Assembly (NCBI GenBank): GCA_902778325.1 | Contig: CACYWZ010000018.1 | Span: forward strand, 1-40,470 | Direction: 5' to 3' | Length of the DNA stretch: 40,470 nt | Source: an uncultured Spirochaetaceae bacterium | GTDB taxonomy: Bacteria; Spirochaetota; Spirochaetia; Treponematales; Treponemataceae | In this document: piece by piece, positions 1,809 to 38,212 of the stretch | Layout: each line of letters begins with the position of its first letter | Numbering within the stretch: position 1 is the stretch's first letter | Program-made: the position numbers and the translations under genes | The notes under the pieces: generated by a model | What the model was told of the DNA's origin: nothing | The model's input: only the letters and a program-made list of their open reading frames with translations | The model's database searches: none

Positions 1809-2093
1809 GGACAATTTGTTGTCGAGCCGCTTTCTTAAGAAAGTATTGAAATAATATTTGTTGCGAGGCATTTTCTTAAAAAAGTGTTGAAAAAACATTT
1901 GTTGTAAAGGTGTTTTCTTAAGAAAGTATTGAAAAAACATTTGTTGCAAGCCGTTTTCTTAAAAAAGTATTGAAAAACTATTTAGTGCAAGCCATTTTCT
2001 TAAAAAAGTGTTGAAAAACTAAATAGGTTAAGGTCATTTTCTTGAAAAAGTATTGAAAAACTAAATAGTTTCGACCCATTTTCTCACAAAAAC
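1809..2093. repeat. Array A: 41-42-base palindromic tandem repeat
   Basis: About 6.5 copies of one unit fill the gap between ytfQ and the RDD gene. The landmark AAGTRTTGAA starts at 1841, 1882, 1924, 1965, 2006 and 2048, so steps are 41, 42, 41, 41 and 42. Each unit carries a palindrome-like core; the best copy, CTTTCTTAAGAAAG at 1830-1843, is perfect. The second half of the later units holds a small dyad that appears as CTATTTAG at about 1978 and as CTAAATAG near 2018 and 2060. The array is AT-rich with A-tracts. There is no reading frame across it, because the unit is not a multiple of three. This gap (1592-2272) otherwise holds the ytfQ leader and one interspersed palindrome. Confidence 0.9.
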
Positions 2094-2135
2094 GCGTTCA
2101 CACAAAAAAGAATGAGGGCGAAAAAGTCATTTTGC

Positions 2136-2163
2136 TGTCATGCTGGACTCGTTTCAGTATCTG
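2136..2163 (+). repeat. REP-like interspersed palindrome, family 1, copy 1
   Basis: The sequence starting TGTCATGCTGGACTCG and ending TTTCAGTATCTG is a degenerate inverted repeat. It matches, in reverse complement, the element at 7690-7716. It sits just upstream of the RDD gene. Its dispersed position and palindromic form resemble repetitive extragenic palindromes. Confidence 0.6.
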
Positions 2164-2272
2164 CCTTGTTTGTGGTAGATTCAAAAACAAGGCAGCCAAT
2201 GACGAACTGCAAGGCTTGAGAAAAGAGCGGCAAAAAAATAAAATGCAACGAGTTTATTTTGAGGACAAAATT

Positions 2273-3259
2273 ATGACTGAAAACGAGGACAAAACGCCAA
2301 AACTCGCAACAAGACGAAACAGATTCTTTGCATTCGCAATCGACCTGCTCATCATCAGTTTTGTGATTCGCATGTCTGCTCTTGCTCTCGGCGATTTTTA
2401 TGCAAGGCTTGGCGGCTGGGGACGAGTGCTTGGCACGCTCATCGCTCTTTTTTATTTTGGGCTTGGCGACAGCGCTCTTTTTGGAGGGCAGACTCTCGGA
2501 AAGCTGGCGATGGGAATGAGAGTGGCAGACAAGCACTGTAAAAGCATCAGCGTTCAAAAAAGCTTTTTTCGCAGTTTTTGGCTCTTTCTTAGATTTGCGC
2601 TGGACGACCCGTCTTTTTCAAGCACAAAATACATTCTGATTTTGTTTTTGGAAGGGCTTGTTTTCTATTCAATTTCGTTCCTGGAGTTTTATTTTTTTAT
2701 CGTCAACCGCGACACACGGCAATCTCTTCACGATTTAATCGCGGGGACGTTTGTGGTTGAAGCTGAAAGCAAAGGCGAAATTGCTTTCGTGAACAAAAAG
2801 AATGCGATTCGCTTCTCGTTCGTTCTGGTGGGCTTCGTTTTCTTTGGAGCGCTTTGCATAACTTTGGCAGCACAAAAATTTGGCTTTGGGCAATCGCACA
2901 AGGTGCAAATGCAGATTCAAGAGGCTCTTCCTGTCTATAACACTTCGATTCGGCACAGAAAAACCAAGCAGAAAGGCAGCGACGGCACGGAGGTTTTCAA
3001 AAAAATTGTGATTCGAACTCGTCTGAAAGACAGCGAAAGCGACACAAAAGCGATTGGACTCGAAATTGCCAAAATTATATCAGAGGCGGGCTTGGCAGAA
3101 GAAGGCGAGGCTTGTTCGCTGATGTTTTACAAGGGCTACGACCTCGGCATTGCAGAAAGTTATGATACCGAAAGCTATTATGCTGGCAACATCGAGCAGT
3201 TGGAAGCGATGTTCTCGATACAAGCGCTGCTCGGCGAAGATGAGGAGAAAAGCGAGTAG
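2273..3259 (+). CDS. RDD family membrane protein
   Basis: I start the gene at ATG 2273, preceded by a GAGG ribosome-binding site at 2261-2264, rather than at an in-frame TTG at 2132, which lies in a repeat element. This gives 328 residues. RDD-domain signatures are visible: RRNRFFAFAIDLLI in the first membrane segment, GGQTLGKLAMGMRV after the second, and NRDTRQSLHDLIAGTFVV after the third. A fourth hydrophobic segment (FVLVGFVFFGALCITLA) is followed by a C-terminal domain of about 110 residues that I do not recognise. RDD proteins are inner-membrane proteins of mostly unknown role; a few act in Na+/H+ exchange. The gene stands alone, convergent with gguB. The family is clear; the function is unknown. 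Confidence 0.85.
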   Translation: MTENEDKTPKLATRRNRFFAFAIDLLIISFVIRMSALALGDFYARLGGWGRVLGTLIALFYFGLGDSALFGGQTLGKLAMGMRVADKHCKSISVQKSFFRSFWLFLRFALDDPSFSSTKYILILFLEGLVFYSISFLEFYFFIVNRDTRQSLHDLIAGTFVVEAESKGEIAFVNKKNAIRFSFVLVGFVFFGALCITLAAQKFGFGQSHKVQMQIQEALPVYNTSIRHRKTKQKGSDGTEVFKKIVIRTRLKDSESDTKAIGLEIAKIISEAGLAEEGEACSLMFYKGYDLGIAESYDTESYYAGNIEQLEAMFSIQALLGEDEEKSE

Positions 3260-3280
3260 TTTTTATTCTGGCGGCGAAAA

Positions 3281-3318
3281 GACAAAAAACCCAGACTCTG
3301 CAACGAGAATCTGGGAAA
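3281..3318 (-). terminator. Terminator after gguB
   Basis: CCCAGACTC and GAGAATCTGGG form a stem with one bulge. On the minus strand it is followed by a T-run (TTTTTTGTC), as expected for the end of the chvE-gguA-gguB operon. On the plus strand there is no T-run, so it is probably one-directional. Confidence 0.7.
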
Positions 3319-3342
3319 AGCTTGTCGATAAGGAGTTACTAC

Positions 3343-4560
3343 TTATTTGCTGCTTTTTCTTTTTTTGGAGATAACATCAAAGAGAACCGCCATCAAAAGA
3401 ACAAGACCTTTTACAGCGCGCTGCCAGTTGGCATCAACACCGAGGATTGACATACCGTTGTTGAGAACGCCCATGAAGACCGCACCAATAACAGCACCGC
3501 TGACTGTTCCAGTTCCGCCGTATGCAGAAGCGCCACCGATAAAGCATGAGCTGATAGCGTCCATTTCGTAGTTAGTACCAGCAGTAGGAGCTGCTGAGTT
3601 GAAACGTGCGATACAAACGAGAGCCGCAACTGCTGAAAGGAAGCCCATGTTTGTGTATGCAAAGAACATAACTTTGTCTGTGTCAACGCCAGAGAGCTTT
3701 GCAGCCTTTGCGTTTCCGCCGAGTGCATAAAGGTAGCGGCCAGGAACTGTGTTCTGTGTGTAATATCCGTAAACTGCAACGATAACAGCCATCAAGATGA
3801 GGATTACTGGAAGACCTGAATCCTGTCCCAAGAGTGCAGAAACAACAAGGATAACAGCGCTCAAGAGAGCAAGTTTTCCGACGAAAAGCGGAACTGCTTC
3901 AACTTCATAGCCCTTGCTGATTCTCTTCTTTCTCTTTCCGATTTCTGCGATGATGAATGCAATACAGCAAATAGCAGCGATAATCATTGTAATCATGAAG
4001 ATTTTTGCCTGAGCCGCTTCATAGCCCATTGCGTCGAATGCCTCATCAGAAATTGCCGGGATTGAGCTGTTGAACAAGCGCAAGAAGTTATCTGGCATTG
4101 GAGAAATGGTCAAGCCGTTCAATGCGATAAGAGCAGCACCGCGCCACAAAAGCATACCAGCCAATGTTACGATGAAAGGCGGGATATGAACGTAGGCAAT
4201 CCAAAGTCCGTGCCATGCGCCGATTAAAATACCAACGATAAGACAAAGCAAGATTGACACATAAATGTTCATGTGCCAGTTAACGATAAACGTTCCGGCA
4301 AGAGCGCCAACGAAACAAACGATAGAACCTACAGACAAGTCGATGTTACCACCGGTAAGGATACAAAGAAGCATACCAGTTGCAAGAATAACGACGTAAG
4401 AGTTTTGCTTGATGATATTTGTGATGTTAGACGGCGCAAAAAGAGAGCCGTTGTCTGTTGCCACGATTAGCACTTGGAAAAGCACCATAACCGCTATAAG
4501 TACTAAAAAGATAGTATTGCTTTTCAGTATTCGCTTGATGTTAGATGATGTTGAACTCAT
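3343..4560 (-). CDS. gguB: Multiple-monosaccharide ABC transporter permease (GguB/MmsB)
   Basis: This 405-residue, highly hydrophobic protein is the membrane channel of the ChvE-type sugar importer. The permease family is visible from NYVVILATGML-like and GGNIDLSVGSIV segments near the N-terminus and SSCFIGGASAYGGTGTVSGAVIGAVFMGVLNNG near the C-terminus, typical of BPD_transp_2 (XylH/GguB) permeases. It is longer than ribose permeases, as GguB and XylH are, because of a loop and extra helices in the middle (around GKRKKRISKGYEVEAVP). Start ATG 4560 follows AGGAG. It lies 20 bases after gguA in the same operon and is followed by a terminator. Substrates inferred from ChvE: xylose, arabinose, galactose and glucose. 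Confidence 0.92.
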   Translation of the reverse strand: MSSTSSNIKRILKSNTIFLVLIAVMVLFQVLIVATDNGSLFAPSNITNIIKQNSYVVILATGMLLCILTGGNIDLSVGSIVCFVGALAGTFIVNWHMNIYVSILLCLIVGILIGAWHGLWIAYVHIPPFIVTLAGMLLWRGAALIALNGLTISPMPDNFLRLFNSSIPAISDEAFDAMGYEAAQAKIFMITMIIAAICCIAFIIAEIGKRKKRISKGYEVEAVPLFVGKLALLSAVILVVSALLGQDSGLPVILILMAVIVAVYGYYTQNTVPGRYLYALGGNAKAAKLSGVDTDKVMFFAYTNMGFLSAVAALVCIARFNSAAPTAGTNYEMDAISSCFIGGASAYGGTGTVSGAVIGAVFMGVLNNGMSILGVDANWQRAVKGLVLLMAVLFDVISKKRKSSK

Positions 4561-4580
4561 AACTACTCCTGTTTCCTAAT

Positions 4581-6116
4581 TTACTTTTTATCAGAATTGA
4601 TAATGCAAGACATAATCTTTTCCTGCGAAGCCTCTTCTTTAGAAAGTTCCGCAATCATTCGTCCTGCGTTCATAACATATATGCGGTCGCTCATACCCAA
4701 AATCTCTGGCATTTCAGAAGAAATGAATATGACAGACTTTCCGTCTTCTACCATCTTGTTGATGATACAGTAAATCTCGTATTTAGCACCAACGTCGATA
4801 CCTCTCGTCGGCTCGTCCAAGATAAGAACGTCTGGGTCTGCAAAAAGCCACTTTCCAAGCAAAACCTTTTGCATATTGCCGCCAGAAAGGTTTCCTACAT
4901 TCTCTTCGATTGCAGCGCATTTTGTGTGCATCTCGCGAACATAGTGCTTTGCAACTTCTCTTTCCTTATCAAAATCAATAATCGCATGAGAAGAAATCTT
5001 CTCAGGCTTTGCCGCCGTCGTGTTGCGGCTGATTGCTTCCGTAAGGATAAGTCCGTTGCCCTTTCGGTCTTCTGTTACATAAGCAACATGGTGATTAATC
5101 GCTGTCTTGACATCAGGGAAAGAAACTTCTTTGCCGTCAAGGAAAATCTGACCACGAATATTTGCGCCATAAGAGCGACCGAAAATACTCATAGCAAGCT
5201 CAGTTCTTCCCGCGCCCATAAGCCCCGAAATACCAACAACCTCACCACGTCTGACGTTGAAATTAACATGGTCGCAAACCTTTATACCGTCAAAAATCGG
5301 GTGATCCACGCACCAGTCTTTTACCTCGAAGAACACATCGCCAATATGCTGGTTCGTTCTCTTCGGGAATCGGTCAGTAAGACTTCGACCGACCATTGCA
5401 GAAATAATCTTGTCTTCAGCGAAGGAATCCTTTGTTTTGTCCATCGTCTGAATCGTCTTACCATCGCGGATAACAGTGATTTTGTCCGCAACATAAGAGA
5501 TTTCGTTTAATTTATGCGAAATCAAAATAGAAGTCATGCCTTGCTTCTTGAACTCAAGGAGTAAATCAAGAAGGTGTTTTGCTTCGGTGTCGTTCAAAGA
5601 TGCCGTAGGCTCGTCAAGAATAAGAAGTTTTACGTTTTTGCCAAGAGCCTTTGCAATTTCAACAAGCTGCTGTTTTCCGACACCGATATCCTTAATCAAA
5701 GTATGGGAAGAATCTTTCAATCCTACAAGATGAAGAAGTTCATCTGCTTTCGAAAACGTCTCAGCCCAATCAATTTTTGAAGTTTTTCCCCGCTCGTTGC
5801 CGAGGAACATATTTTCGCCAATAGTAAGAAGCGGAACAAGAGCGAGCTCTTGATGAATAATAACAATGCCTTTTGCTTCACTATCTTTTATATTCTGGAA
5901 CTGGCATACTTCCCCGTTATAAACAATGTCGCCCTCATAAGTGCCATAAGGATAAATACCGCTCAAAACACTCATCAAAGTAGACTTACCCGCTCCGTTC
6001 TCACCAACAAGAGCATGGATTTCGCCTTCTTCAACCACGATATTCACATCGTCAAGCGCCTTGACACCAGGGAATGTCTTGGTAATATGCTTCATTTCCA
6101 ATAAAGTTTTTGCCAT
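4581..6116 (-). CDS. gguA: Multiple-monosaccharide ABC transporter ATPase (GguA/MmsA)
   Basis: The 511-residue protein has two fused nucleotide-binding domains, the usual layout for sugar importers. The first domain holds Walker [10 protein letters not shown] near residue 40, the signature [15 protein letters not shown] and Walker [11 protein letters not shown]. The second has a degenerate P-loop ([10 protein letters not shown]), the signature [16 protein letters not shown] and Walker [17 protein letters not shown]. The stretch [10 protein letters not shown] and [20 protein letters not shown] are typical of Agrobacterium GguA. Start ATG 6116 is preceded by GGAG. It sits between chvE and gguB and couples ATP hydrolysis in the cytoplasm to uptake of monosaccharides. 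Confidence 0.95.
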
Positions 6117-6140
6117 TGGAAGTCTCCGTTTAGTACTTAA

Positions 6141-6187
6141 AGAAAAGGCAGAAGAGGAAGATTTTTTTTCCAGTTCTGCCCTTTTCA
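6141..6187 (-). terminator. Hairpin between chvE and gguA (attenuator)
   Basis: AAAAGGCAGAA at 6143-6153 pairs with TTCTGCCCTTTT at 6174-6185 with one bulged base. It follows the chvE stop and precedes gguA. The T-run on the minus strand is short (TTTTCTTT), so partial termination is likely, giving more binding protein than ATPase. Confidence 0.6.
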
Positions 6188-6194
6188 GTTATTT

Positions 6195-7277
6195 CTACTG
6201 CAAGTCTGATGCGTTGTAATAGCCTGAATCAATCAGCAACTTCTTGTAGTTTGCTGTTGTGGCGAATACAGGGTCGCAAAGGTATGAAGGAATGATTCCT
6301 GTTCCGTTGTCGTATGTCTTGACATCGTTGATTTCAGGTTCTTTTCCCTGCATCATAGCGTCGACCATACCAACAACTTTCTCTGCCAAAGTGCGAGTAT
6401 CCTTGAAGATAGACATAGCCTGAGTGCCCTTGAGCATGTTCTTTACGTTCGGCTTGTCGCAGTCCTGACCTGTAACGATTGGGAAATCAGCTGCTGTGTA
6501 GCCTGCTGCAACGAGAGCGTTTGTGATACCCATAGCGACAGAGTCGTTTGATGAGTAAACAGCGTCAAGTTTCTTTCCGCGTGGACCGTATCCCTGTGAA
6601 GAGATGAGGTTCTCCATTCTCTTCTGAGCCTCTTCTGTTGACCAGTTGAGAGTTGCGCACTGAGCCTTTGAAGTCTGTCCTGATGGAACAACGAGAACGC
6701 CTGAATCGATGTATGGCTTCAAAACGTCCATAGCACCACCGAAGAAGAAGTTGATGTTGTTGTCATCTGGTGAGCCTGTGAAAAGCTCGATGTATGCTGG
6801 GTCGCTAGCAGTGCGAGTCTTCAAGTTGAGCTTGTCGACAAGGAAGTTGCCCTGAATTGTTCCAACCTTCCAGTTGTCGAAAGTTGCGTAGTATGAAACA
6901 GCGTCGCTGTTCATGATAAGGCGGTCATAAGCGATAACCTTAACACCCTTTCTCTTTCCCTGGTCAAGAACGCTCTTCAAAGCAGAACCATCGATAGAAG
7001 CGATAACAAGGATTTTGTTTCCTTTAGAAATCATGTTCTCAATCTGGCTTGTCTGAGTTGCGATATCGTTGTTTGCATACTGCAAGTCAACTTTGTATCC
7101 AGCCTTCTCAAGCTGAGCCTTCATGTTAGCGCCGTCCTGATTCCAGCGCTGAAGGTCTTTTGTCGGCATAGAAACACCGATTGGTGTTTTCTTTGAGATT
7201 TTCTTTGCCTTTGGAGCTGCGAATACCTGTGGAACAATCATGAGTCCAGCAAGTGCCATAGCAATAATTTTTTTCAT
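6195..7277 (-). CDS. chvE: Periplasmic multiple-sugar-binding protein ChvE
   Basis: This 360-residue protein is the solute receptor that delivers aldoses to GguA-GguB. A signal peptide (MKKIIAMALAGLMIVPQVFA) is followed by a body that closely follows Agrobacterium ChvE: GVSMPTKDLQRWNQDGANM, DLQYANNDIATQTSQIENMI, VIAYDRLIMNSDAVSYYATFDN, ELFTGSPDDNNINFFFGGAMD, VLKPYIDSGVLVVPSGQ and SIFKDTRTLAEKVVGMVDAMMQGKEPEIND. ChvE binds arabinose, xylose, galactose and glucose. There is no lipobox, so it should be soluble in the periplasm. The start ATG follows GGGGGA. The leader carries a small GGGC-TTTT-GCCC hairpin at 7300-7311. It is first in the operon with gguA and gguB. Confidence 0.96.
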   Translation of the reverse strand: MKKIIAMALAGLMIVPQVFAAPKAKKISKKTPIGVSMPTKDLQRWNQDGANMKAQLEKAGYKVDLQYANNDIATQTSQIENMISKGNKILVIASIDGSALKSVLDQGKRKGVKVIAYDRLIMNSDAVSYYATFDNWKVGTIQGNFLVDKLNLKTRTASDPAYIELFTGSPDDNNINFFFGGAMDVLKPYIDSGVLVVPSGQTSKAQCATLNWSTEEAQKRMENLISSQGYGPRGKKLDAVYSSNDSVAMGITNALVAAGYTAADFPIVTGQDCDKPNVKNMLKGTQAMSIFKDTRTLAEKVVGMVDAMMQGKEPEINDVKTYDNGTGIIPSYLCDPVFATTANYKKLLIDSGYYNASDLQ

Positions 7278-7464
7278 AAGGATTCCCCCTATTAGTTTTG
7301 GGCTTTTGCCCTACCAGTTTTGATAATCTAATTCTAAGCCCGAAGAGAAAGCCGTGCGTTTTGAAATTCTTGAATTTTTTGCTAAATTCATACACAAATT
7401 CAAAATCAAGCGTGAAAAATTTGCTCTCTTTTCTGGAATTTCTTGTCATTCAAAAAATCCAGAT

Positions 7465-7618
7465 TTCTTTCCTCGATGTTAAGGAGAGTTTCCTCGATGT
7501 TAAGGAGATGTTCCTTGAGGTTAAGGAGATGTTCCTCGAAGTTAAGGAAGAGTTCCTCGAAGTTAAGGAAATGTTCCTTGACGAAAAAAAACATTCCCTC
7601 GATGTGAAGGAATGTTTT
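7465..7618. repeat. Array B: 21-base tandem repeat ending in a terminator hairpin
   Basis: The hexamer TTAAGG starts at 7479, 7500, 7521, 7542 and 7563, exactly 21 bases apart. A related TGAAGG sits at 7605, 42 bases after the last. The unit is about CCTCGATGTTAAGGAGATGTT. It fills part of the gap between the chemoreceptor gene and chvE (7278-7737); the rest is the chvE leader and one interspersed palindrome. Because 21 is a multiple of three the array is open in several frames and would spell seven-residue repeats such as FLEVKEM, but no ribosome-binding site or known domain supports translation. Unlike the other arrays, its unit is not clearly palindromic. Confidence 0.9.
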
Positions 7619-7620
7619 TT
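7584..7620. terminator. Bidirectional terminator at the end of array B
   Basis: AACATTCC at 7590-7597 pairs with GGAATGTT at 7609-7616. An A-run lies before it and a T-run after it, so it can work on both strands. It is built from the last units of the repeat array. It is well placed to end transcription of the chemoreceptor gene (minus strand). Confidence 0.7.
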
Positions 7621-7689
7621 TATGGTTCTCTCTGTCTGAAAAAAAATTGCTATTGACGAACTTGTTTTCAGAATCTACTAAAATTAAGG

Positions 7690-7716
7690 CAGATGCTGAA
7701 ACGTGTTCAGCATGAC
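7690..7716 (-). repeat. REP-like interspersed palindrome, family 1, copy 2
   Basis: ATGCTGAA and TTCAGCAT form an eight-base stem around a five-base loop. The reverse complement (TGTCATGCTGAACACG then TTTCAGCATCT) matches the element at 2136-2163 with only a few differences. It lies just past the stop codon of the chemoreceptor gene. Confidence 0.65.
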
Positions 7717-7737
7717 AATAGTTTTTTGAAGGAGGAA

Positions 7738-9837: not shown

Positions 9838-9898
9838 AAAGAACTCCTTATGATATGCAATTCTGGTGTGTTGACAAAAACCGTTTTTTATTGAGAGC

Positions 9899-9928
9899 AT
9901 TTTATCGTAAAGGCTGTGCTTTTTCCAA
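9899..9928 (-). promoter_or_regulatory. Predicted promoter of the chemoreceptor gene
   Basis: On the minus strand a -35 TTGGAA (9928-9923) and a -10 TAAAAT (9904-9899) are separated by 18 bases. This lies about 60 bases upstream of the start at 9837 and supports that start over 9939. Confidence 0.5.
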
Positions 9929-10012
9929 TAGCACAACAAAATAAATATGCGCTCCTTACAGAATGTTTTTAAAGCTTTTGTTCCATTTCAAGGCAAGGTG
10001 AGAAAAATGACA

Positions 10013-10041
10013 TTGAGAAAGATTCGATTTTCCTGTAATCT
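10013..10041 (+). promoter_or_regulatory. Predicted dnaX promoter; message may be leaderless
   Basis: A -35 TTGAGA at 10013-10018 and a -10 TAATCT at 10036-10041 are 17 bases apart. Transcription would then begin at about 10047-10049, on the dnaX ATG at 10048. No Shine-Dalgarno sequence precedes dnaX, which fits a leaderless message. Confidence 0.45.
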
Positions 10042-10047
10042 TTGCTT

Positions 10048-12173: not shown

Positions 12174-12757
12174 ACGCCCTTGACGAAATAATCGACAGCT
12201 TTTCGCGACTGCCGGGCATCGGAAAAAAGAGCGCCGCCCGTATCGCAAACAGCCTTTTGAGCGCAGACACAGTCTTTATGCAGCGCTTTTCGAGCCAAAT
12301 CGCAACACTTCAGGAGCGAATCCGCCCTTGCTCGATTTGCGGAAGCTGGACAGAAAAAGACCCATGCCCGATTTGCTCAGACTCACTTCGCGACAAGAGC
12401 GTGATTTGCGTCGTTGAGCAGCCGCAGGACGTGCAGACAATCGAAAGCTCGCACACATTCCGCGGACTTTATCACGTCTTGGGCGGAGTCATTTCGCCTT
12501 TGGACGGCGTCGGTCCTTCTCAGCTCCGCATCTCTGAACTCCACCAAAGAGTTAGCTCCGGAGAAGTCAGCGAAGTGATTATCGCCACAAACCCTACAGT
12601 CGACGGCGACACGACAGCGCTTTATATCCAAAAAGCACTTGAGTCAAGCGGTGTGAAAATCACGCGCCTTGCAAGCGGAATCCCGGCAGGCGGCGACCTT
12701 GAATACGTTGACCGCCTCACTCTCGACCGCAGTTTCCGCGGACGAACCGCAATTTAG
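12170..12757 (+). CDS. recR: Recombination protein RecR
   Basis: The 195-residue protein loads RecA at gaps together with RecF and RecO. It shows the helix-hairpin-helix near the N-terminus (DSFSRLPGIGKKSAARIAN), the four-cysteine zinc finger CSICGSWTEKDPCPIC, and a Toprim domain (VICVVEQPQDVQTIE ... YHVLGGVISPLDGVGP ... EVIIATNPTVDGDTTALYI) with the Walker-B-like C-terminal end. The start is TTG at 12170, overlapping the ybaB stop (TTGA). No ATG nearby would keep the helix-hairpin-helix, so TTG is well supported. Length is normal for the family (about 200). Array C begins right after, and partly resembles, the 3' end of the gene. Confidence 0.95.
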   Translation: MNALDEIIDSFSRLPGIGKKSAARIANSLLSADTVFMQRFSSQIATLQERIRPCSICGSWTEKDPCPICSDSLRDKSVICVVEQPQDVQTIESSHTFRGLYHVLGGVISPLDGVGPSQLRISELHQRVSSGEVSEVIIATNPTVDGDTTALYIQKALESSGVKITRLASGIPAGGDLEYVDRLTLDRSFRGRTAI

Positions 12758-12759: not shown

Positions 12760-13062
12760 GCACGCGGTTACTCAACGAAACGGTTGCTGAGCGTAGTCGA
12801 AGCACAAACTGTATTGCGGTTTTCCTGACTTTTCGCTTGGACGAGCTCCACCGCGAGAGGTTTTTGAAGAAATTTCATTTGGACAAGCAAAACCGCATGC
12901 GGTTGAAGCCATTTGATTCTATGGACAGTAAAAACCGCACGCGGTTTTTGAAGAAATTTCGTTTGGACGAGCAAAACCGCAAGAGGTTTTTGAAGAAATT
13001 GTGTTTGGACGAAAAAAAACGCAAGAGGTTTTCAAAGAAATTGTGTTTGGACGAAAAAAACG
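12760..13062. repeat. Array C: 42-base palindromic tandem repeat
   Basis: The landmark GGTT starts at 12818, 12859, 12901, 12943, 12985 and 13027, with steps of 41, 42, 42, 42 and 42. Each unit holds a core that is often a perfect dyad: AACCGCATGCGGTT at 12891-12904 and AAAACCGCACGCGGTTTT at 12931-12948. Other copies read CCGCAAGAGG and are decayed. The left edge (12760-12818) is irregular and contains an 18-base interspersed element. The GGACGA of the unit also occurs in the last codons of recR, so the array may have grown from the end of that gene. The 42-base step keeps a reading frame open (14-residue repeats such as RFLKKLCLDEKKRK); I do not think it is translated. Confidence 0.9.
12786..12803 (+). 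repeat. Interspersed element, family 2, half copy
   Basis: GCTGAGCGTAGTCGAAGC is one arm of the palindrome seen at 22010-22055 (TGAGCGGAGTCGAA there). It is embedded at the left edge of array C. Confidence 0.55.
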
Positions 13063-13077
13063 CAAAACAGACACAAA

Positions 13078-18177: not shown

Positions 18178-18376
18178 CTACGAAGGTCAATTTTAAAACC
18201 GAGCCTCGTTTAAACTACGAAGCATCTCCCGCATGCCAAAAATCAATCGTAGCGGCTACGAAGCATTTCCCGCATGCCGAAAGGCAATCGTTTAAACTAC
18301 GAAGCGTTTCCCGCGTGCCGAAAGCCAATCGTAGCAACTACGAAGCGTTTCCGCCATGCAAAACGTCAATCGTAGT
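18178..18376. repeat. Array D: 41-base palindromic tandem repeat
   Basis: The landmark CTACGAAG starts at 18215, 18256, 18297 and 18338, exactly 41 bases apart, with a decayed copy 37 bases upstream at 18178. The junction between units is palindromic in alternating forms: CGTTTAAAC at about 18207 and 18289, and CGTAGCGGCTACG at about 18249, or CGTAGCAACTACG at about 18330. A second small hairpin, TGCCGAAAGGCA with a GAAA loop, is visible in the unit at 18275. The last unit ends about 12 bases before the -35 box of nifJ. The gap 18098-18456 holds only the cysK terminator, this array and the nifJ promoter. Confidence 0.9.
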
Positions 18377-22225: not shown

Positions 22226-22483
22226 ATGGGAAAGAAAGAAAAGCTCATAGAAAAGTTGAAATCAAAACCAAAAGATTTTACATTTGATGAAGCAGAAACT
22301 TTGTTAGGGTATTTTTCTTACAGTCGTTCTAACAAAGGAAAAACAAGCGGTTCTAGGGTAATGTTTACTAGCGAAGAGCATAATGCACCAATTTTATTGC
22401 ATAAACCACACCCAAGAAAAGAATTGCTTGATTATCAAATAAAGCAGTTGCTTGAAGTTTTACAGCAGGAGGGCTTAGTATGA
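22226..22483 (+). CDS. hicA: HicA family toxin (mRNA interferase)
   Basis: The 85-residue protein is the toxin of a type II toxin-antitoxin pair that cleaves mRNA. It has the small dsRBD-like HicA pattern: an N-terminal helix KKEKLIEKLKSKPKDFTFDEAETLL, the loop NKGKTSGSRVMF, then HKPHPRKELLDYQIKQLLEVL. In classical HicA the loop reads GSHH or similar and its histidine is needed for activity; here it is GSR, as I recall for a subgroup with longer partners, and the histidines are in HKPHP. The gene overlaps hicB by four bases (ATGA). The promoter at 22175-22207 serves both. Confidence 0.85.
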   Translation: MGKKEKLIEKLKSKPKDFTFDEAETLLGYFSYSRSNKGKTSGSRVMFTSEEHNAPILLHKPHPRKELLDYQIKQLLEVLQQEGLV

Positions 22484-22821
22484 ATAATCTGATGGAATAC
22501 AAAGGCTATGTCGGCAGTGTTGAGTTTTCTGCAGACGATATGCTTTTTTATGGAAAAGTACAGGGAATCAGAGCTTTGATTTCTTATGAAGGCACTAATG
22601 CTCAAGAATTGCTTGATGATTTTCATTCTGCTGTAGATGATTATCTTGAATTGTGCAAAGCTGAGAACAAAGAGCCAGAAACAGCATACAAGGGAGAGTT
22701 TTATATTCACATTACGCCAAAACTTCATAAGGAAGTTGCAATGTATGCTCTTGAGCACGAAATGCCTCTTAATACGGTAATCGAAAAATCTCTTGAACGA
22801 ACTCTTGTTGCTACATATTAA
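22480..22821 (+). CDS. hicB: HicB family antitoxin
   Basis: The 113-residue protein is the antitoxin that blocks HicA and probably represses the operon. The N-terminal HicB fold is visible in MEYKGYVGSVEFSADDMLFYGKVQGIRALISYEGTNAQELLDDFHSAVDDYLELC (shown here as the family pattern over residues 4-59). A C-terminal segment ITPKLHKEVAMYALEHEMPLN, followed by TVIEKSLERTL, fits a ribbon-helix-helix DNA-binding domain. Its ATG overlaps the hicA stop, so the pair is translationally coupled. Confidence 0.9.
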   Translation: MNNLMEYKGYVGSVEFSADDMLFYGKVQGIRALISYEGTNAQELLDDFHSAVDDYLELCKAENKEPETAYKGEFYIHITPKLHKEVAMYALEHEMPLNTVIEKSLERTLVATY

Positions 22822-28840: not shown

Positions 28841-29096
28841 CAGCCGTTAAGTCCACTTAATCGCTTGCCAGAAAAAAAAGGAAGGCGTTAAGTCGACTTA
28901 ATTGCTCGCCAGAAAAAAAAGGAAGCCGTTAAGTGCACTTAATTGCCTCCCAGAAAAAAAAGGAAGCCGTTAAGTCGACTTAATGAGCCGCCAGAAAAAA
29001 AAGCTCTTCGTTAAGTGCACTTAATGGCGAGAAAAAAAATTTTTCATTAAGTGCACTTAACGGAGAGAAAAAGTTTTTTGTCGTTAAGTGCAAAAG
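28841..29096. repeat. Array E: 41-base palindromic tandem repeat
   Basis: The core GTTAAG starts at 28846, 28887, 28928, 28969 and 29010, exactly 41 bases apart; two shorter steps follow (29046 and 29083). The core is a perfect palindrome in two versions: TTAAGTCGACTTAA (28888 and 28970) and TTAAGTGCACTTAA (28929, 29011 and 29047). The first copy, TTAAGTCCACTTAA, is broken only in the middle. Each unit also carries an A8-tract (AGAAAAAAAAGGAAG). The array lies between the GH115 stop and the promoter of the outer-membrane protein; no ordinary terminator is seen in this 367-base gap. Confidence 0.93.
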
Positions 29097-33100: not shown

Positions 33101-33521
33101 GGCGGATAATCGGCATAGAATTTGAGTCCATCTTCAATATCGAAGGAGTCGACGCATTGTCTGGCAGAGATTTTTTCACTCGGTCAATCTTGTCGCGAAT
33201 GTCGGTTGTGGCTACATCGAGGTTATATCCGTAGTCAAATTGCAAAACGATAAAAGAAGAGCCTTCAGAAGAGCTAGAAGTCATCTCTTGCAAGCCCGAC
33301 ACGCTCACAAGTGCGCTTTCTAGCACCTTTGTTACGCTTTTTTCCACGCTTTCAGGGCCTGCATTTTTGTATGTCGTCGAAACCATAATGACGGGCATAT
33401 CAATATCAGGCATAAGAGCAATTGCAACACGCTGAAGCGAGAACAATCCCAAAACGCCGAGAAGAGCGAAGACGATTAAAGTCAAAACTGGGTGCGATAA
33501 TGTGGTTTTCGATATGCTCAT
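30177..33521 (-). CDS. RND efflux pump, inner-membrane subunit with a basic C-terminal tail
   Basis: The 1114-residue protein is an AcrB-type (HAE1-like) proton-driven exporter. It starts with the RND pattern MSISKTTLSHPVLTLIVFALLGVLGLFSLQRV, with PDIDMPVIMVSTTYKNAGPE next, and has 12 expected membrane helices in two groups around residues 10-30, 340-540, 560-580 and 865-1020. In helix 4 the motif is GVGMIVDASIVMIENIH; only one of the two adjacent aspartates of AcrB is present, as in many HAE1 pumps of anaerobes. The C-terminus is extended by about 85 residues (from about 1030) rich in Lys, Arg, Ala, Glu and Ser. It starts 11 bases after the adaptor gene. The substrate is unknown. Confidence 0.93.
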   Translation of the reverse strand: MSISKTTLSHPVLTLIVFALLGVLGLFSLQRVAIALMPDIDMPVIMVSTTYKNAGPESVEKSVTKVLESALVSVSGLQEMTSSSSEGSSFIVLQFDYGYNLDVATTDIRDKIDRVKKSLPDNASTPSILKMDSNSMPIIRLAIRGNRSNDDLKQIAEDSIVDSLEQVDGVAEASVSGGRTKIVRVELSQNRLAAYDLTFSTVSAALNKQNLELGGGKISEGKRDYTIRTTGEYSSIDEINNTVIKTVNGYDLKLSDIGQAFLGYQDKSSEVFINGEPGIYVAVTKQSGTNSVTVANAVYEKLEKIKEQLPSDITLEIVSDDTDSIRDTINTLIESAYQGLILAIIILFLFLKSMKSTIIIAISIPLSMVITLLCMNAVGITLNMMTLTGLILGVGMIVDASIVMIENIHSYRTRGAKPHVAAILGSQEMIMSVISGNLTTICVFIPFLFYMKDLSFIGQMFKGIIFTVVIALVSSLFVAIFLVPVLAGHFLPLTNRKEKPLKSRFLIRFYGFLDKILNIVTDFYAKILRKALNNRAITVLFCVGALVVAIAFIPTMRITMLSRTNDDSVSVKLTMPIGTTLSETTAVIEQMEQIIRDEIKGYKTIITSIGTGRGSSSSYKASIEIRLPESSEQIDTSATIQQKLRAHFADFADGEFSFGAGRSQQMAGDDIDIAIRSADLDAAMDTAKKIKAAMQKVSDVGEATIDTTEGLPQVEVVIDRQRAYNFGVDVTTVADEINYAIDGVTSTVYRKSGKEYNVVIMLRPEDRAKVTDLETIYVKGTNGKVSVANFASVKKGLGPVSISRDNQSRIVHVTAGIVTNMNASDVEKEIQNAIAESFIIPEGVNVSYEGSWKEMKKQSKAYGKIFIMAILLVFGVMAGTYESFKAPLINLCTIPFLVIGVVAIYKISGQSISMMSAIGLIMLVGIVVNNGIILVDYTNLLVDRGLSVKEACFEAGKSRLRPVLMTTLTTILGMIPMCFASSGSAAMVQPIGVAVVGGLTSSTFITLFFIPVLYSLVMRKRKASKTKIKVELLDTSKESATQVAPKKSVRSRKTAETEEKSAQDEEKPKRKYARKTTAEKSDSLNAKADKASKVATTKKRSAKKSVTEESDVQS

Positions 33522-33532
33522 AGCTCAACCCC

Positions 33533-34642
33533 TCATCTTTCCCCAGTGCTTCCAACTCCGCCCCAACTGCGTTTCTTGCTTTTGGTGCTTTTCGCCATTT
33601 TTTCCGCATTGTCTTTGCTAACATCAGCGCTCTCTTTTTCGTCTGTCGCAGGGCGCTCCTCTTCATCGCTTTTTTTATCAGCGATTTCCTGTTCATCGCG
33701 CTCAATATTCTCGCTAATGTCGCGGATTTTCGCACCATCAGAAAGAGATGTTTGCCCTTCAACAACAATACGCTCACCTTCACTCACACCCTTCAAAATC
33801 TGAACCATTCCGTCAACTTTTTCGCCCAAAACAATCTCGCGCTGCTCAACAGTGTTATCGCGAGTGACAACGTAGGCGTAATTTTTTGAATCCTTTGTTA
33901 CAACACTGTCACTCGGCATGACAACAGCGCCCGTAAAATCGCGAGTGAAAAGCGTGACTTTTGCAAACATACCTGCATTTATGCGGCTGTCTTTCTTGTC
34001 AAAGTTCAAAATTATCTCTTTTGTGCGACTTGCAGCATCAACAACAGGCGAAACGCGCGAAACAGTCGCCTTAAAGATAACGCCAGGATAGGCTTCAAGC
34101 GAAATATCCGCGCTCAAGCCTGTTTTGAGGAGAGCAACATAGCGCTCTGGAACATTTGCCGTGATTTGAAGGCTCTCAACATCACCGATAATTGTTATCA
34201 CGCTGTTTGTGCTCACCGTCGTTCCCTCTTTTAGCGGAGTTGAAACAATAGAACCTGAAATCGGAGCGTAAACAGGAGAAAGCGCATACTGCGTTCCTGG
34301 CTCAGACGGGTCAACACGGGCAATCACACTGCCTTTTTTCACAGGAGAGCCCAAAGACACATAAACATTGCGGACTTTTCCGCCCATATCAGGGAAAACC
34401 TCAATCGAGCTTTGCGCTTCCACTTCGCCATTCGTCGAAACATAATCGTGCAAGACAGAGTTTTGTGCTTTCAGCGTTCTCACAGAAAAAACAGTGTCGC
34501 CACTAGGAGCGCGATTTCGCATTGAGCGCCCTCCTCCACCTTTTTTGCCTTGCAAAAGCGCATATGTTATCAAAAGCAATGTGCAAATTATAAAAATAAT
34601 AGTGATAAGAACCTTTAAGCCCTTGTTTGAAGTCCTAGCCAT
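33533..34642 (-). CDS. RND efflux periplasmic adaptor (membrane fusion protein)
   Basis: The 369-residue protein has one N-terminal membrane anchor (VLITIIFIICTLLLITYALL) and the lipoyl and barrel pattern of HlyD/AcrA adaptors: YVSTNGEVEAQSSIEVFPDMGGKV, VSLGSPVKKGSVIARVD, YAPISGSIVSTPLKEGTTV, and later VMPSDSVVTKDSKNYAYVV and ILKGVSEGERIVVEGQTSLSDG. The last 60 residues are a highly charged tail (DEQEIADKKSDEEERPATDEKES... then KSTKSKKRSWGG), which is not part of the usual fold. It bridges pump and outer-membrane channel. Start ATG 34642 follows GGAG and lies 16 bases after the tolC-like gene. Confidence 0.92.
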   Translation of the reverse strand: MARTSNKGLKVLITIIFIICTLLLITYALLQGKKGGGGRSMRNRAPSGDTVFSVRTLKAQNSVLHDYVSTNGEVEAQSSIEVFPDMGGKVRNVYVSLGSPVKKGSVIARVDPSEPGTQYALSPVYAPISGSIVSTPLKEGTTVSTNSVITIIGDVESLQITANVPERYVALLKTGLSADISLEAYPGVIFKATVSRVSPVVDAASRTKEIILNFDKKDSRINAGMFAKVTLFTRDFTGAVVMPSDSVVTKDSKNYAYVVTRDNTVEQREIVLGEKVDGMVQILKGVSEGERIVVEGQTSLSDGAKIRDISENIERDEQEIADKKSDEEERPATDEKESADVSKDNAEKMAKSTKSKKRSWGGVGSTGER

Positions 34643-34658
34643 TTATTTCTCCACAATT

Positions 34659-35948
34659 TTATTTAAGAAGAGTCCCGAAAGGCACTCCAATAATATTTTC
34701 CAAATCAAGAATACTTGAAACAAGCGAATATGCCTCGCTTTTGAGATTAACCTGCGACTCAAACACATCGTCAAGCGCCTTTTGGAGCGAAAGCAAATCC
34801 TTTGTGCCGCGCTGGTAAGCCAAGAACGTCATATCAAAAGTCTCTTTTGCAAGATTCGCGCTCGCCTGCAATGACAAAATCGCCGCTTTTGATTGCGCAA
34901 TCGAAAGAAGAGCGCTTTCAGTGCTGACTTTGAGCGAAGTCTTTTCGTCCTCAATCTGCAATTCAATCGACTCAACGCTGTCTTTCGCGCTCGCGATGTT
35001 TTGCGCGCTCGACGACCACGGCAAAATTGAATCAAGCGGAATTGTTACACTTGCCTTGAGCGTTTCAGAGTCAACCGCGTCATTGTCCCCTGTCTTGCTC
35101 CTTTGAACAGTGTAGCTTCCCGTCAAAGTTGGCGCATAAGCATTAAGTCGGCTTTTGAGCACAGAAGTTTTTGCCGCTTCAAGTTTGTTTTCGAGGATTT
35201 TGAGCGACGTGCTGTTTATCTCAACATCTTTTATCGTAATATCGCCAATGTTCAAAAAGTCATCGAGAGAGCCAGAAAGCGAAATCTCCGTTTCCTGAGA
35301 AATCCCAAGCATTTGCTTGAAACTTGCTTTGTCATTACTGAGCGTCGTTTCTGCGCTCAAGACCTTCGGCTTTTGAGTTTCCACACTAACTTGAGTGCTC
35401 AAGACATCGAGACGAGAAATTCCGCCAGAATTATACTTTGCAAGATTTTGCTGGTACTGCTTTTCGGCGCTTTCAAGATTTTGCTTTTGCAATTTGAGAT
35501 AATCCTCATCGTAAAGGATTTTGTAGAACGCCTTTCGCACATTCAGCTCAATCGTTTTAACAGCGCTTTCATAAGAAAGTTTGCCGTTTTCGTAATCAAG
35601 TTTTGCGCCTTTGACCGCCGCAAAAAGAGCAGGCGTAAAACTGATGCTCGCCGTGCCATAAACAGCCGCAGTTCCGTCCCCGTCATCACTTGGAGCGACA
35701 GGCTTCGTGTAAGAAGCGCCAGCCGAAACAGACGGAGAAACAGAGTTCCAAGAATACGTCGAAGAGCGCTTGTAGGCTCTCAAAGTAATCTCTTCTTCTT
35801 TTAGCGAAATATTGTTTTTAATCGCAAGAGAAACCGCCTCATCAACATCAAGATTTTCTTTTAATTCAGAAGAAGCAGCAAAGACAGGAACACAGCCGAA
35901 AAACACACAAAGCGTAATAGAAAAAGAAAGCAAACAAGATTTTTTCAT
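34659..35948 (-). CDS. TolC family outer-membrane efflux channel
   Basis: The 429-residue protein has a signal peptide (ending PVFA) and the two OEP repeats of TolC-like channels: LDVDEAVSLAIKNNISLKEEEI, YASISFTPAL-like strands, long coiled-coil helices (KLQKQNLESAEKQYQQNLAKYNSGGISRLDVLSTQVSVE), and the second repeat AYQRGTKDLLSLQKALDDVFESQVNLKSEAYSLVSSILDLENIIG. It provides the exit duct for the RND pump. Start ATG 35948 follows AGGAG. It is first in the operon tolC-adaptor-RND-PG0541. A good -10 (TATAAT) lies about 25 bases upstream of the start on the minus strand, but no -35 at normal spacing is clear. Confidence 0.92.
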   Translation of the reverse strand: MKKSCLLSFSITLCVFFGCVPVFAASSELKENLDVDEAVSLAIKNNISLKEEEITLRAYKRSSTYSWNSVSPSVSAGASYTKPVAPSDDGDGTAAVYGTASISFTPALFAAVKGAKLDYENGKLSYESAVKTIELNVRKAFYKILYDEDYLKLQKQNLESAEKQYQQNLAKYNSGGISRLDVLSTQVSVETQKPKVLSAETTLSNDKASFKQMLGISQETEISLSGSLDDFLNIGDITIKDVEINSTSLKILENKLEAAKTSVLKSRLNAYAPTLTGSYTVQRSKTGDNDAVDSETLKASVTIPLDSILPWSSSAQNIASAKDSVESIELQIEDEKTSLKVSTESALLSIAQSKAAILSLQASANLAKETFDMTFLAYQRGTKDLLSLQKALDDVFESQVNLKSEAYSLVSSILDLENIIGVPFGTLLK

Positions 35949-36117
35949 AATTGATAACTCCTAATCATTATAACCCGCCTCGCGCCGTAAAGATACCCTG
36001 TCAAATAACCGATTTTCAAAAAAAAGTGTTATTGATTATCAAAATTTATATTACACAACCTTAATTTGTGATAGTCTTTTTTTAAGTTTTAAACAAAAAA
36101 CTGCACGGGAGGAAAAA

Positions 36118-37947
36118 ATGAGTATCGGAACAACATTCGACACAAACACCGAAATCACCGACCCTGACGTTTTGATAGAAACATTCTTCAAAACTTACCC
36201 CGACTACAGCGAAGAAAAGAGCGCTGAACAAATAGAAAAAGCATGGCGTTATCTCGTTGAAAAAACAAAAGACATAAAACGCTCTTGTGGAAAGCCATAT
36301 TATCTTCACCCGATGCGAGTCGCCTGTATCCTCTCGCAAATGAAGATGGACACAGACACAGTTATCGCAGGCTTTTTCCACAACCTCGAAGAAGCACAAG
36401 CAAACAGCACAAGCGAAATAAAAACACTCTTCGGAGAGGACATCGCGAAAATCATAAGCGACACGAACAAAATCACGAGCCTCAAAATAAAGAACAAAAC
36501 GCTACAAGAAGCCGACGCAATCCGCAAAATGCTCTTTGCGATGATAGACGACATCAGAGTCATCATCGTAAAGATGGCAGACCGCCTCGACCGAATGCGA
36601 AATCTCCGCAACGTGCCCGCTGCCGCTCAGCGCGCTATCGCCGCAGAAGTGATTGACATCTGGGCGCCACTGGCAAGCCGCCTCGGAATGAGCGACATCA
36701 AAGGCGAGCTTGAAGACTTGAGCCTTAAATACTCAAACCCCGACGTTTTCCAGCAAATAAAGTCAATCGTGGCGCAAAAAAAAGACGAGCGTGCCGAGTA
36801 TCTCGACAAGGCAGTTCAGGCGATTTACAAAGCCGCAGAAAAGCGAGGAATCCACGTCACGATAAAAAGCCGCGCCAAGCACTTTTACTCGATTTACCAA
36901 AAGATGCGAAAACGAAACAAGGGCGCTGACGAGCTTTACGACCTTCTTGCCCTCCGCGTTATCTGCAACGAGACAAGCGAATGCTACACACTCATCGGAA
37001 TTGTCCACAGCCTTTGGACTCCGATGGAAGGCAGGTTCAAAGATTACATCGCAATGCCAAAAGCGAACGGCTACCAGAGCCTTCACACCACCGTTATCTG
37101 CGAAGGACGCCCGCTCGAAATCCAAATCCGCACCGCCGAAATGCACAACATCGCGGAGCACGGCGTTGCGGCGCACTGGCTTTACAAAAAAGGCACGAAC
37201 CACGACATGGTCAAAGCCTCCGACCTTTCAATCATCAATCAGCTCAAAGAACTCAGAAGCGAAAAACTCAACGACGAGTCGTTTTTCAAGCAACTCAAAG
37301 ACGAGCTTTTGGGCGACGAGATTTATGTGTTCACCCCGAAAGGCGACGTCGTCGAACTTCCCGCAGGAGCGACAGCAATCGACTTCGCCTACCACGTTCA
37401 CAGCGCAGTCGGCGAGAAAATCGTCGGCGCAAAGGCGGACGGAAAGATAATCCCGCTCTCAACCCCGCTTGAAAACACCCAAATCATCGAGATTCTCACA
37501 AACCCGCAGGCGCACCCGACCGAAAACCAGCTAAAACTCGTCAAAACGTCGAAGGCAAAGCAAAAAATACGCTCGTGGCTCTCGCAAAACGACAGCGCCT
37601 TTGCCGCCCTCGCTTCCGAAAAGCAAAAGCAAAGCGAAGGCGATGCCCCGCAGCGAGACCTTCCGCGAAAGCACAGAGCTGGAAGCGGCTACATCGAGCA
37701 AAAGCGCTACACGGGAAAAATCCGAATCGGCGACACAACGAACTTTTTCATCACGATTGCAAAATGCTGCAACCCAAAGCCCGGAGATTTAATCGTCGGC
37801 TACATCTCGCGCGTTCGAGGCGTTACCGTGCACAAAGCGACATGCGTCACCTATCAGCGAATCCCGAACATCGAGAACCGCTCTATTGAAGTCATTTGGG
37901 ACGAAAGCGAAGACGACGAAAAAGACAAGAAAACAAAGAAAAAATAG
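36118..37947 (+). CDS. rsh: RelA/SpoT homologue: intact synthetase, degenerate hydrolase, no ACT domain
   Basis: The 609-residue enzyme should make (p)ppGpp. The N-terminal HD hydrolase fold is present (YYLHPMRVACILSQM), but the hallmark HDxxED reads HNLEEA at residues 88-93: the metal-binding Asp is Asn89 and the second acid is Ala93. The downstream acid in VKMADRLDRMRNL (Asp155) is kept. The synthetase domain looks complete: RAKHFYSIYQKM, LYDLLALRVI, RFKDYIAMPKANGYQSLHT and EIQIRTAEMHNIAEHGVAAHW. A TGS domain follows (YVFTPKGDVVELPAGATAIDFAYHVHSAVG). The C-terminus ends after the cysteine-containing segment (IAKCCNPKPGDLIVGYISRVRGVTVHK..C) with an acidic and basic tail; there is no ACT domain. 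Start ATG 36118 follows GGGAGG. Confidence 0.92.
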   Translation: MSIGTTFDTNTEITDPDVLIETFFKTYPDYSEEKSAEQIEKAWRYLVEKTKDIKRSCGKPYYLHPMRVACILSQMKMDTDTVIAGFFHNLEEAQANSTSEIKTLFGEDIAKIISDTNKITSLKIKNKTLQEADAIRKMLFAMIDDIRVIIVKMADRLDRMRNLRNVPAAAQRAIAAEVIDIWAPLASRLGMSDIKGELEDLSLKYSNPDVFQQIKSIVAQKKDERAEYLDKAVQAIYKAAEKRGIHVTIKSRAKHFYSIYQKMRKRNKGADELYDLLALRVICNETSECYTLIGIVHSLWTPMEGRFKDYIAMPKANGYQSLHTTVICEGRPLEIQIRTAEMHNIAEHGVAAHWLYKKGTNHDMVKASDLSIINQLKELRSEKLNDESFFKQLKDELLGDEIYVFTPKGDVVELPAGATAIDFAYHVHSAVGEKIVGAKADGKIIPLSTPLENTQIIEILTNPQAHPTENQLKLVKTSKAKQKIRSWLSQNDSAFAALASEKQKQSEGDAPQRDLPRKHRAGSGYIEQKRYTGKIRIGDTTNFFITIAKCCNPKPGDLIVGYISRVRGVTVHKATCVTYQRIPNIENRSIEVIWDESEDDEKDKKTKKK

Positions 37948-37979
37948 TTTTTCTTGATTGACTCAAACACATTCTGGGG

Positions 37980-38212
37980 TGACTAAATTTTTAGTGCCCC
38001 CCATTTTTTTGTAAAGCGCACTCACTAAATTTTTAGCGAGCAAGACTTTTTAGTAAAATGACCTCGCTAAATTTTTAGTGACCTCGACTTTTTTGTAAAA
38101 CGACCTCACTAAATTTTTAGTGAGCAAGACTTTTTGATAAAATGAACTCGCTAAGTTTTTAGCGAGCCAGACTTTTTGGTAAAATGACCTCGCTAAGTTT
38201 TTAGTGAGCAAG
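37980..38212. repeat. Array F: 42-base palindromic tandem repeat
   Basis: The landmark CTAA starts at 37983, 38025, 38067, 38109, 38151 and 38193, exactly 42 bases apart every time. The core is a hairpin: CTCACTAAATTTTTAGTGAG (38105-38124, perfect) and CTCGCTAAGTTTTTAGCGAG (38147-38166, with the stem pairs changed on both sides). Other copies hold one mismatch or a G-T pair. The rest of the unit is about CAAGACTTTTTAGTAAAATGAC. Because 42 is a multiple of three, the minus strand is open and would spell 14-residue repeats (SFYQKVLLTKNLAR); this is probably not a gene. The array lies between the rsh stop and the sugar-sensor genes; there is no other terminator in this 342-base gap. Confidence 0.95.

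Follow-up and report, generated by a model that had tools for sequence, protein, structure and literature searches.

The closest known case to the repeats described here comes from the spirochaete Leptospira interrogans, whose chromosome I carries 42 satellites, about two thirds of them intergenic; the intergenic satellites fall mostly into families that, in the authors' term, were scattered by "transposition", and of the five long-repeat families listed three have a repeat length of 46, while 37 and 69 are the lengths in the remaining two (Subirana and Messeguer 2019, PMC6749651). Here we analyzed a 40,470-nucleotide stretch of DNA from an uncultured Spirochaetaceae bacterium (assembly GCA_902778325.1, contig CACYWZ010000018.1, positions 1 to 40,470; hereafter the window), in which six intergenic tandem arrays had been noticed from the letters alone, together with further DNA of the same source genome. 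As in L. interrogans, the genome is that of a spirochaete and its satellite families are dispersed and intergenic (PMC6749651). The difference is that about a fifth of the source genome holds 78 arrays in 31 families with a 41/42-bp step and one core-and-belt anatomy, whereas the available part of the Leptospira account describes neither a common ruler nor palindromic cores (PMC6749651).

The F-plasmid centromere parS-F (sopC) has a 43-bp repeat with a 16-bp inverted repeat (PMC6238139). The arrays of the source genome are similarly built from tandem 41/42-bp units with an inverted-repeat core of ~17 bp; however, sopC is one plasmid site with its own ParB (PMC6238139), while the source genome has many chromosomal families and no ParB_N match over the cut-off. 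TIGR arrays, which are also tandem arrays with variable palindromes, have truncated edge repeats at both ends and processed units of 36 nt (PMC12045711). In contrast to TIGR, the units described here lack variable guide spacers, their non-core portion being about two thirds identical in eight families; no candidate Tas effector lay adjacent among the window genes scanned, and PF02371, which is not a Tas-specific model, had no match in the source genome. Unlike CRISPR, the whole unit repeats and there are no unique spacers. The boxB part of pneumococcal BOX elements is about 45 bp long. BOX elements are composite repeats scattered over the genome, in which internal modules in tandem, variable in number, lie between end modules of a different kind (PMC3049150); end units of 36-37 bp, which may be comparable, were seen here by eye, in families 4 and 5 only, but BOX comprises a few families, and no common step over many families is described in the available part of that account (PMC3049150). 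REP/BIME elements resemble the present arrays in being dispersed intergenic palindromes, sometimes clustered, that have spread in one genome; they differ in that no Y1 transposase was found in the source genome and in that no strict 41/42 tandem step is described for REP/BIME in the available part of the source (PMC3733652). Judged from listings, the open-licence literature yielded no description of such Treponema arrays or of a fixed-step satellite library.

Periodicity was measured in two samples of the source genome, whose assembly is 94% complete. The first sample comprises the window and 20 further stretches (431,432 bp), several of which were picked for holding family 0 matches, a choice that biases array density but hardly the period; the second comprises 20 other stretches (380,419 bp, including 84,006 N), and both together cover ~22% of the genome. 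When 14-mers matching a shifted copy of the sequence with at most 2 mismatches were counted, the first sample gave 2588 matches at lag 41 and 2651 at lag 42, against 86 at lag 40 and 3 at lag 43. The double step stood out as well (1333 at lag 82, 1280 at 83 and 1469 at 84, against 4 at 85), and 446,959 bp of same-genus DNA gave 1 match at lag 41 and 34 at lag 42. In the second sample, where raw counts are swamped by N, lags 41 and 42 exceeded lag 40 by about 770 and 500. Tandem Repeats Finder (TRF), which is independent of the lag count, found 66 groups in the first sample, with a fundamental period of 41 in 32, 42 in 19, 83 in one, 21 in three and 23 in five, and 48 groups in the second, with periods of 41 in 17, 42 in eight, 84 in two, 21 in three, 23 in five and 43 in one. 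The 41/42 step is far beyond chance and genome-wide in this organism, and the sharp peak over many unrelated sequences that the sequence-only reading had named beforehand as the mark of a shared process is present in both samples. Outside the cores, bases are 0.668 identical between units, yet lengths other than 41/42 are nearly absent; the unit length therefore appears to be held while the non-core sequence has diverged by a third.

TRF recovered all six arrays of the window at the places first assigned to them:

Array 1 (family 0), 1814 to 2092, + strand: TRF periods 41, 42 and 83; 41/42-bp units; cores TTTCTTAAGAAA and AACTAWWWAGTT-type; divergent genes on either side.
Array 2 (family 11), 7469 to 7616, + strand: TRF periods 21, 42 and 63; 21-bp unit TTCCTNNNNTTAAGGA.
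Array 3 (family 7), 12831 to 13065, + strand: TRF 42-bp units; core AACCGCAWGCGGTT; neighbours recR and a TraB/gumN-family gene, in convergent orientation.
Array 4 (family 4), 18206 to 18375, + strand: TRF periods 41 and 82; 41-bp units; core TCGTAG-NNN-CTACGA or TCGTTTAAACTACGA.
Array 5 (family 5), 28842 to 29092, + strand: TRF periods 41 and 82, then 36; 41-bp units; core TTAAGTSSACTTAA; A8 tract in the spacer.
Array 6 (family 2), 37982 to 38213, + strand: TRF periods 42 and 84; 42-bp units; core CRCTAAATTTTTAGYG; neighbours a RelA/SpoT gene on one side and a periplasmic sugar-binding-type gene on the other.

In array 4, a 37-bp end unit with GGTCAATTTTAAAACCGAGCC starts at about 18178 (ends judged by eye), and the successive steps of array 5 are 41, 41, 41, 41, 36 and 37 bp. 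A 113-aa open reading frame (ORF) with a TTG start encloses array 2 and was taken for spurious.

Inside the window the unit sequences of the six arrays are indeed unlike one another, as had been noted, but genome-wide all six have siblings, and the statement that they are not a mobile repeat family fails: each array belongs to a family that is dispersed over the genome. For array 1, matches were found at 14 other places of the source genome (best 88% over 264 bp, 40 candidates scored), and its family 0 has 9 arrays in the first sample; array 5 matches eleven further places, plus one 27-bp match (best 85% over 253 bp, 40 candidates scored). Array 2 has 21 matches genome-wide, itself included, with siblings in L026 and, by period and sequence, in L212. 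Siblings of array 3 lie in L018 at 193-410 and 12202-12419. Array 4 has three further places (four candidates scored), with siblings in L018, L019 and L024, and array 6 has siblings in L011, L012 and L015. When arrays were grouped by blastn (E 1e-8), the 85 arrays of both samples, each made of about 2.5 to 14 units joined head to tail, fell into 37 groups; 78 arrays have the 41/42 step, four a step of 21 and three a step of 23. A 41/42 array is contained in 31 of the 37 groups, three groups being 21-bp only and three 23-bp only. Of the 28 second-sample arrays, 11 fall in a first-sample family and 17 do not. With 19 of the 37 groups singletons and six pairs, more families surely exist; a Chao-type estimate that leaves out the three 23-bp singletons gives a total of about 55.

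Similarity between sibling arrays mostly stops at the array ends, and siblings are alike position by position. In family 0 (9 arrays), best matches in other arrays sat at the same end position in 0.50 of cases, against 0.30 after shuffling of unit order (P 0.003); in family 5 (7 arrays, with a duplicated pair represented once) the values were 0.59 and 0.35 (P 0.013). These data suggest that arrays were mainly copied whole, and they contradict the proposal of fixed-step amplification at each site. Best matches within the own array showed no significant excess in either family (family 0, 6 of 45 against 2.5 expected, P 0.087; family 5, 2 of 26 against 1.7 expected, P 0.49). Adjacent units were 0.843 identical in family 0 and 0.865 in family 5, against 0.81 and 0.86 for same-position units of siblings. 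Because adjacent units are slightly more alike, some local homogenisation within arrays is likely; furthermore, unit number differs between siblings. Site-by-site replication slippage that favours one step would accord with the tandem arrangement, with this variation in unit number and with the slight likeness of neighbours. However, the positional preference and the lack of a significant own-array excess speak against it, and we know of no reason why slippage should prefer 41/42 across unrelated sequences, so that we give it hardly any credence. In L020, two copies of a 285-bp segment that contains a family 5 array match at 98% (5184-5468 and 7382-7666) and are separated by an unrelated 501-aa gene; a 509-aa gene follows the second copy, and a piece of its 3' end follows the first. 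Fresh transposition of the array was ruled out here, since the copy carries the neighbour gene's 3' end, and the case is one of a duplicated segment.

Despite their differing sequences, the units share one layout: a palindromic core of ~17 bp with a free centre of 2-4 bp, and GC-rich belts ~10 bp, about one turn, from the centre. Compared with column-permuted controls, 42 of the 47 arrays have an excess of palindromic centres (1.15 per unit against 0.54). The core that had been read in each long-unit array thus occurs once per unit in most arrays, but in the window array 1 (0.94 hits per unit observed, 0.84 permuted) and array 6 (0.98 and 0.78) are barely above control. In an alignment of 20 families centred on the best palindromic centre, a choice that inflates pairing within 9 bp but affects neither the free centre nor the GC belt, pairing was 0.31 at the centre and 0.68-0.93 in the arms at 2-8 bp, and GC content was 0.55 and 0.69 at 10 and 11 bp; the belt was GC-richer than the rest in 18 of the 20. 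Ten families found only in the second sample, one of which resembles a coding repeat, have the same layout in weaker form: centre pairing was 0.37 against a null of 0.57, arm pairing 0.69-0.82 against 0.54-0.60 at 3-6 bp and 0.57 against 0.62 at 7 bp, and GC 0.57-0.61 against 0.35-0.39 at 10-11 bp, with a richer belt in 8 of the ten. In eight families compared after correction for orientation, to which the comparisons of arms with the rest and the pairing and covariation figures below also refer, the arms were 0.914 identical and the rest 0.668, the arms being higher in all eight, a footprint that resembles an operator. G<->C swaps made up 27.6% of belt substitutions against about 7% in core and spacer, in part as a result of the belts being GC-rich; this swapping suggests that the belts keep composition more than sequence.

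Cores and spacers are in part separable. By eye, families 0, 2, 3, 4 and 6 have two core types on like spacers, and families 5 and 9, which are weakly linked, have a spacer stretch in common while their cores differ. Two family 3 arrays, in L023 and L024, go from one core type to the other by way of a hybrid core that combines the left arm of one with the right arm of the other, the 42 step remaining intact. In L024 the spacer orientation flips at the hybrid core (by eye), and a 14-unit array keeps the 42 step across both hybrid core and flip. The two hybrid cores may stem from one inherited event, and module flipping is not a common event, being found in only 2 of 192 spacers.

Gap and gene placement were taken from crude ORF calls, with neighbouring arrays merged when less than 150 bp apart in the first sample and less than 600 bp in the second. 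The window had suggested that every gap over 300 bases holds exactly one array and that shorter gaps hold none. One array per gap is mostly the case, whereas the size rule holds only locally: in the first sample arrays occupied 32 of the 50 gaps that measure 300 bp or more, 11 of the 32 measuring 200-299 bp and none of the 104 measuring 40-199 bp, with just one array in 42 of the 43 occupied gaps; in the second sample, part of which reads N, the counts were 16 of 43, 5 of 20 and 1 of 68, and all 22 hold one. Most merged arrays do not lie mainly inside a crude ORF (46 of 52 in the first sample, 22 of 26 in the second). Most overlaps were taken for over-extended or spurious ORFs, and at least one second-sample array looks coding. 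Arrays are found between convergent, tandem and divergent genes; in the first sample convergent gaps were enriched (18 of 41 hold an array, against 25 of 145 others; Fisher p 0.0007), and its 32 arrays were evenly spaced along the chromosome (coefficient of variation (CV) 0.53 against 0.75-0.80, P 0.005-0.015). Neighbours less than 3 kb apart are rare in both samples (2 against 6.4-6.9 expected in the first; 0 against 2.2-3.3 in the second, P 0.013-0.064).

The arrays are tandem non-coding repeats, with the same repeat at several loci, and as far as sampled they are restricted to this species, by sequence for families 0, 4 and 5, in which this was tested. Family 0 had two matches of 24-44 bp only in 38 relatives, and among genus genomes (the source genome counted, 3-4 candidates scored per genome) family 5 in 201 and family 4 in 198 were found in the source genome only, bar one match of at most 28 bp each. 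No TRF group with a fundamental period of 41 or 42 was present in stretches of 14 relatives, 9 of them same-genus; coverage of the relatives was 5 to 107 kb a genome, so that sparse arrays could escape, and L181, L190, L192 and L193 (0.5-2.9 kb) were left out. Similarly, lag counts in 22 same-genus genomes and three named Treponema loci showed no 41/42 excess, bar Treponema saccharophilum dnaX and a stretch of G042 that is high at all lags. The dnaX case (L084, 11421-11633) is a 42-bp tandem repeat within the coding region, 14 codons in length, and not an intergenic array. By dnaX, the closest named relatives belong to Treponema. In five more same-genus genomes, three of which contain N runs, lags 41 and 42 were not above 40 and 43.

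At 10.4-10.5 bp per turn, 41-42 bp corresponds to four helical turns. Since the step has this length and was kept while a third of the non-core bases diverged, selection on helical phase is the most economical reading of the data, and from there we infer a protein array. Our preferred reading, held tentatively, is that the arrays are satellites, dispersed and non-coding, and that a phased nucleoprotein array keeps their step at four turns; a phased architectural protein behind the step is a fair inference. The step would stay at 41/42 because successive cores, at intervals of four turns, would all have to face the same side of the helix; dimers of one DNA-binding protein, or of several related ones, would stack on the cores to form an ordered nucleoprotein array with a layout resembling the F-plasmid centromere. 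Whole arrays would be copied into new gaps by some recombination or transposition route, and cores could be swapped as modules with no loss of the step. A stronger version, in which a symmetry-reading protein or a radiated DNA-binding family holds hundreds of arrays of many sequence families at exactly four turns as a dispersed, chromosome-wide scaffold or centromere, in a lineage whose assembly has no recognisable chromosomal ParA/ParB pair, we regard as improbable.

Several observations weigh against a phased nucleoprotein array. The binding protein is so far hypothetical, and 31 families would call for a large number of proteins, unless a single one recognises symmetry instead of sequence. 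The best ParB_N (PF02195) match in the source genome scored 21.2 bits, under the 26.3 cut-off, while 18 of 20 relatives have a match with E below 1e-26; ParA of a relative gave at best 39 bits. Two relatives (G007 and G008) are also without a strong ParB match, yet their stretches show no array excess, so that the absence of ParB is at most a lead. The 36/37-bp steps with which array 5 ends, and which were also seen by eye at the ends of further arrays in families 4 and 5, amount to 3.5 turns and are off-phase, and one second-sample TRF group has a period of 43. Neither the excess in convergent gaps (7 of 29 against 15 of 102, p 0.26) nor the even spacing (16 arrays, CV 0.81 against 0.75-0.83) was repeated in the second sample. 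Finally, sharing of 13-mers across families, described below, lets descent explain part of the common step. As a separate observation, the gene beside parB in the relative G002 occurs in the source genome in a different setting.

Among the alternatives, the arrays may be selfish non-autonomous elements made of a module with inverted arms, the palindrome being the junction of two modules and the end geometry of a recombinase or transposase setting the 41/42 step, with no host function; this is a real possibility, if a doubtful one. The arms are inverted repeats around a free centre, families 0, 4 and 5 start and end inside a palindrome by eye, the hybrid cores of two family 3 arrays join the arms of two core types, sibling arrays are alike position by position, and the presence of one array in 42 of 43 occupied gaps is as tolerated insertions would show. 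However, among 35 arrays with clear cores (13 of 48 dropped) termination at core centres was not supported as a general rule, only 15 of 70 ends lying within -3 to +6 bp of a core centre; by hand count 38 of 70 lay near either symmetry centre, about 29 being expected. The hybrid cores, moreover, may be a single inherited event. Whole-unit mirror symmetry, as from rolling replication of a small dumbbell, was not supported either (weaker half 0.416 against a null of 0.387; 14 of 48 arrays at p<0.05). Nor did searches for an enzyme or carrier favour selfish modules. Y1 transposase (PF01797, REP/RAYT origin), which is present in 10 of 29 relatives, had no match in the source genome, nor had the IS110-type model PF02371, and no reverse-transcriptase gene was found; these origins were rejected, other transposases and recombinases not having been searched. 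Viral, plasmid and phage carriage were rejected too: the patterns of families 5 and 4 were absent from IMG/VR, in which that of family 0 occurred on 5 contigs with one match each, taken for chance, family 5 had no match in plasmids and family 0 none in phages. In another scheme, which we consider unlikely, a single ancestral 41/42 array had its cores and spacers replaced stepwise, and the step is inherited rather than enforced. A 13-mer is common to 23 of 666 family pairs, against 7.2 +- 2.8 after shuffling, and the two core types on like spacers in five families, together with the spacer stretch that families 5 and 9 have in common, would suit such replacement. The other 643 pairs share no 13-mer, and with a third of the non-core bases changed, indels should have widened the step beyond 41/42, which is not so. 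Descent of all arrays from one diverged ancestor, which the sequence-only reading had held to be fatal to a fixed step, is therefore only partly excluded.

It is also conceivable, though very unlikely in our view, that the arrays act as RNA, either as transcribed and processed stem-loops comparable to TIGR or as terminators or sponges. The palindromes with their 3-4 nt centres could fold as hairpins, and TIGR stem-loop arrays likewise have variable palindromes (PMC12045711). Nevertheless, Watson-Crick pairs in the arms numbered 944 of 1116, against 930.1 expected from independent arms, and the innermost pair of family 5 is the sole one to covary at p<0.02; arm mismatches (G.T 43, A.C 32) show no clear preference. 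Belts showed no positive covariation across spacers in any of the eight families; across cores family 5 alone was nominally high (p 0.04), and 5 of 16 belt tests were nominally low (families 3, 4 and 8). The window has no Rfam match at the gathering cut-off, so that a known RNA family was rejected. Arrays lie between convergent, tandem and divergent genes alike, and units have no unique guide-like spacers. The lack of arm covariation favours half-site recognition on DNA over selection for hairpins, in a test whose power is limited by the strong conservation of the arms.

The published satellite survey names one bacterium, also a spirochaete, with satellite families (PMC6749651), and the source genome has many more. 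That its families agree on the step within one bp and share the core-and-belt layout despite differing sequences turns the vague question of satellite tolerance in bacteria into a testable one, namely where the 41/42-bp ruler resides, in which protein or which enzyme. Should this prove to be an architectural protein, bacteria would link satellites to packaging, as has been proposed for eukaryotes; should it prove to be a recombinase, a new kind of element-building enzyme would have come to light. Were the chromosome-wide phased system true, bacteria would possess an equivalent of eukaryotic satellite DNA whose unit length is set by a packaging protein.

Other repeats were observed alongside the 41/42 arrays. 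Palindromic tandem arrays with a 23-bp step occur in the source genome (L009, 2258-2366; L016, 13811-13919 and 17343-17464; L023, 7069-7143) and are possibly a simpler ancestral form; palindromic arrays of 20-22 bp are present in some relatives (L051 and L068). A dispersed hairpin, GCTGAAACNNGTTCAGCATGAC, lies in the window at 7695-7716 (+ strand) and 2137-2158 (- strand, 2 mismatches) and is exact in 13 of 264 loci, some overlapping each other or the window. As it is found in other same-genus genomes (L056, L066 and L175), it represents a separate, wider repeat family. A run of coding-like 69-bp repeats extends from about 7029 to 11591 in L252. In a relative, a 5-kb contig (L230, G010 contig 119) has lag peaks at 46/47 and 92/93 plus a Y1 transposase gene, and is perhaps a true REP array; another (L176, 112-401, G109) has a CRISPR-like array with a 64-bp period. 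Within the window, positions 22226-22821 hold a probable toxin-antitoxin pair, made up of a HicA-like gene (26.5 bits, just below the cut-off) and a HicB gene.

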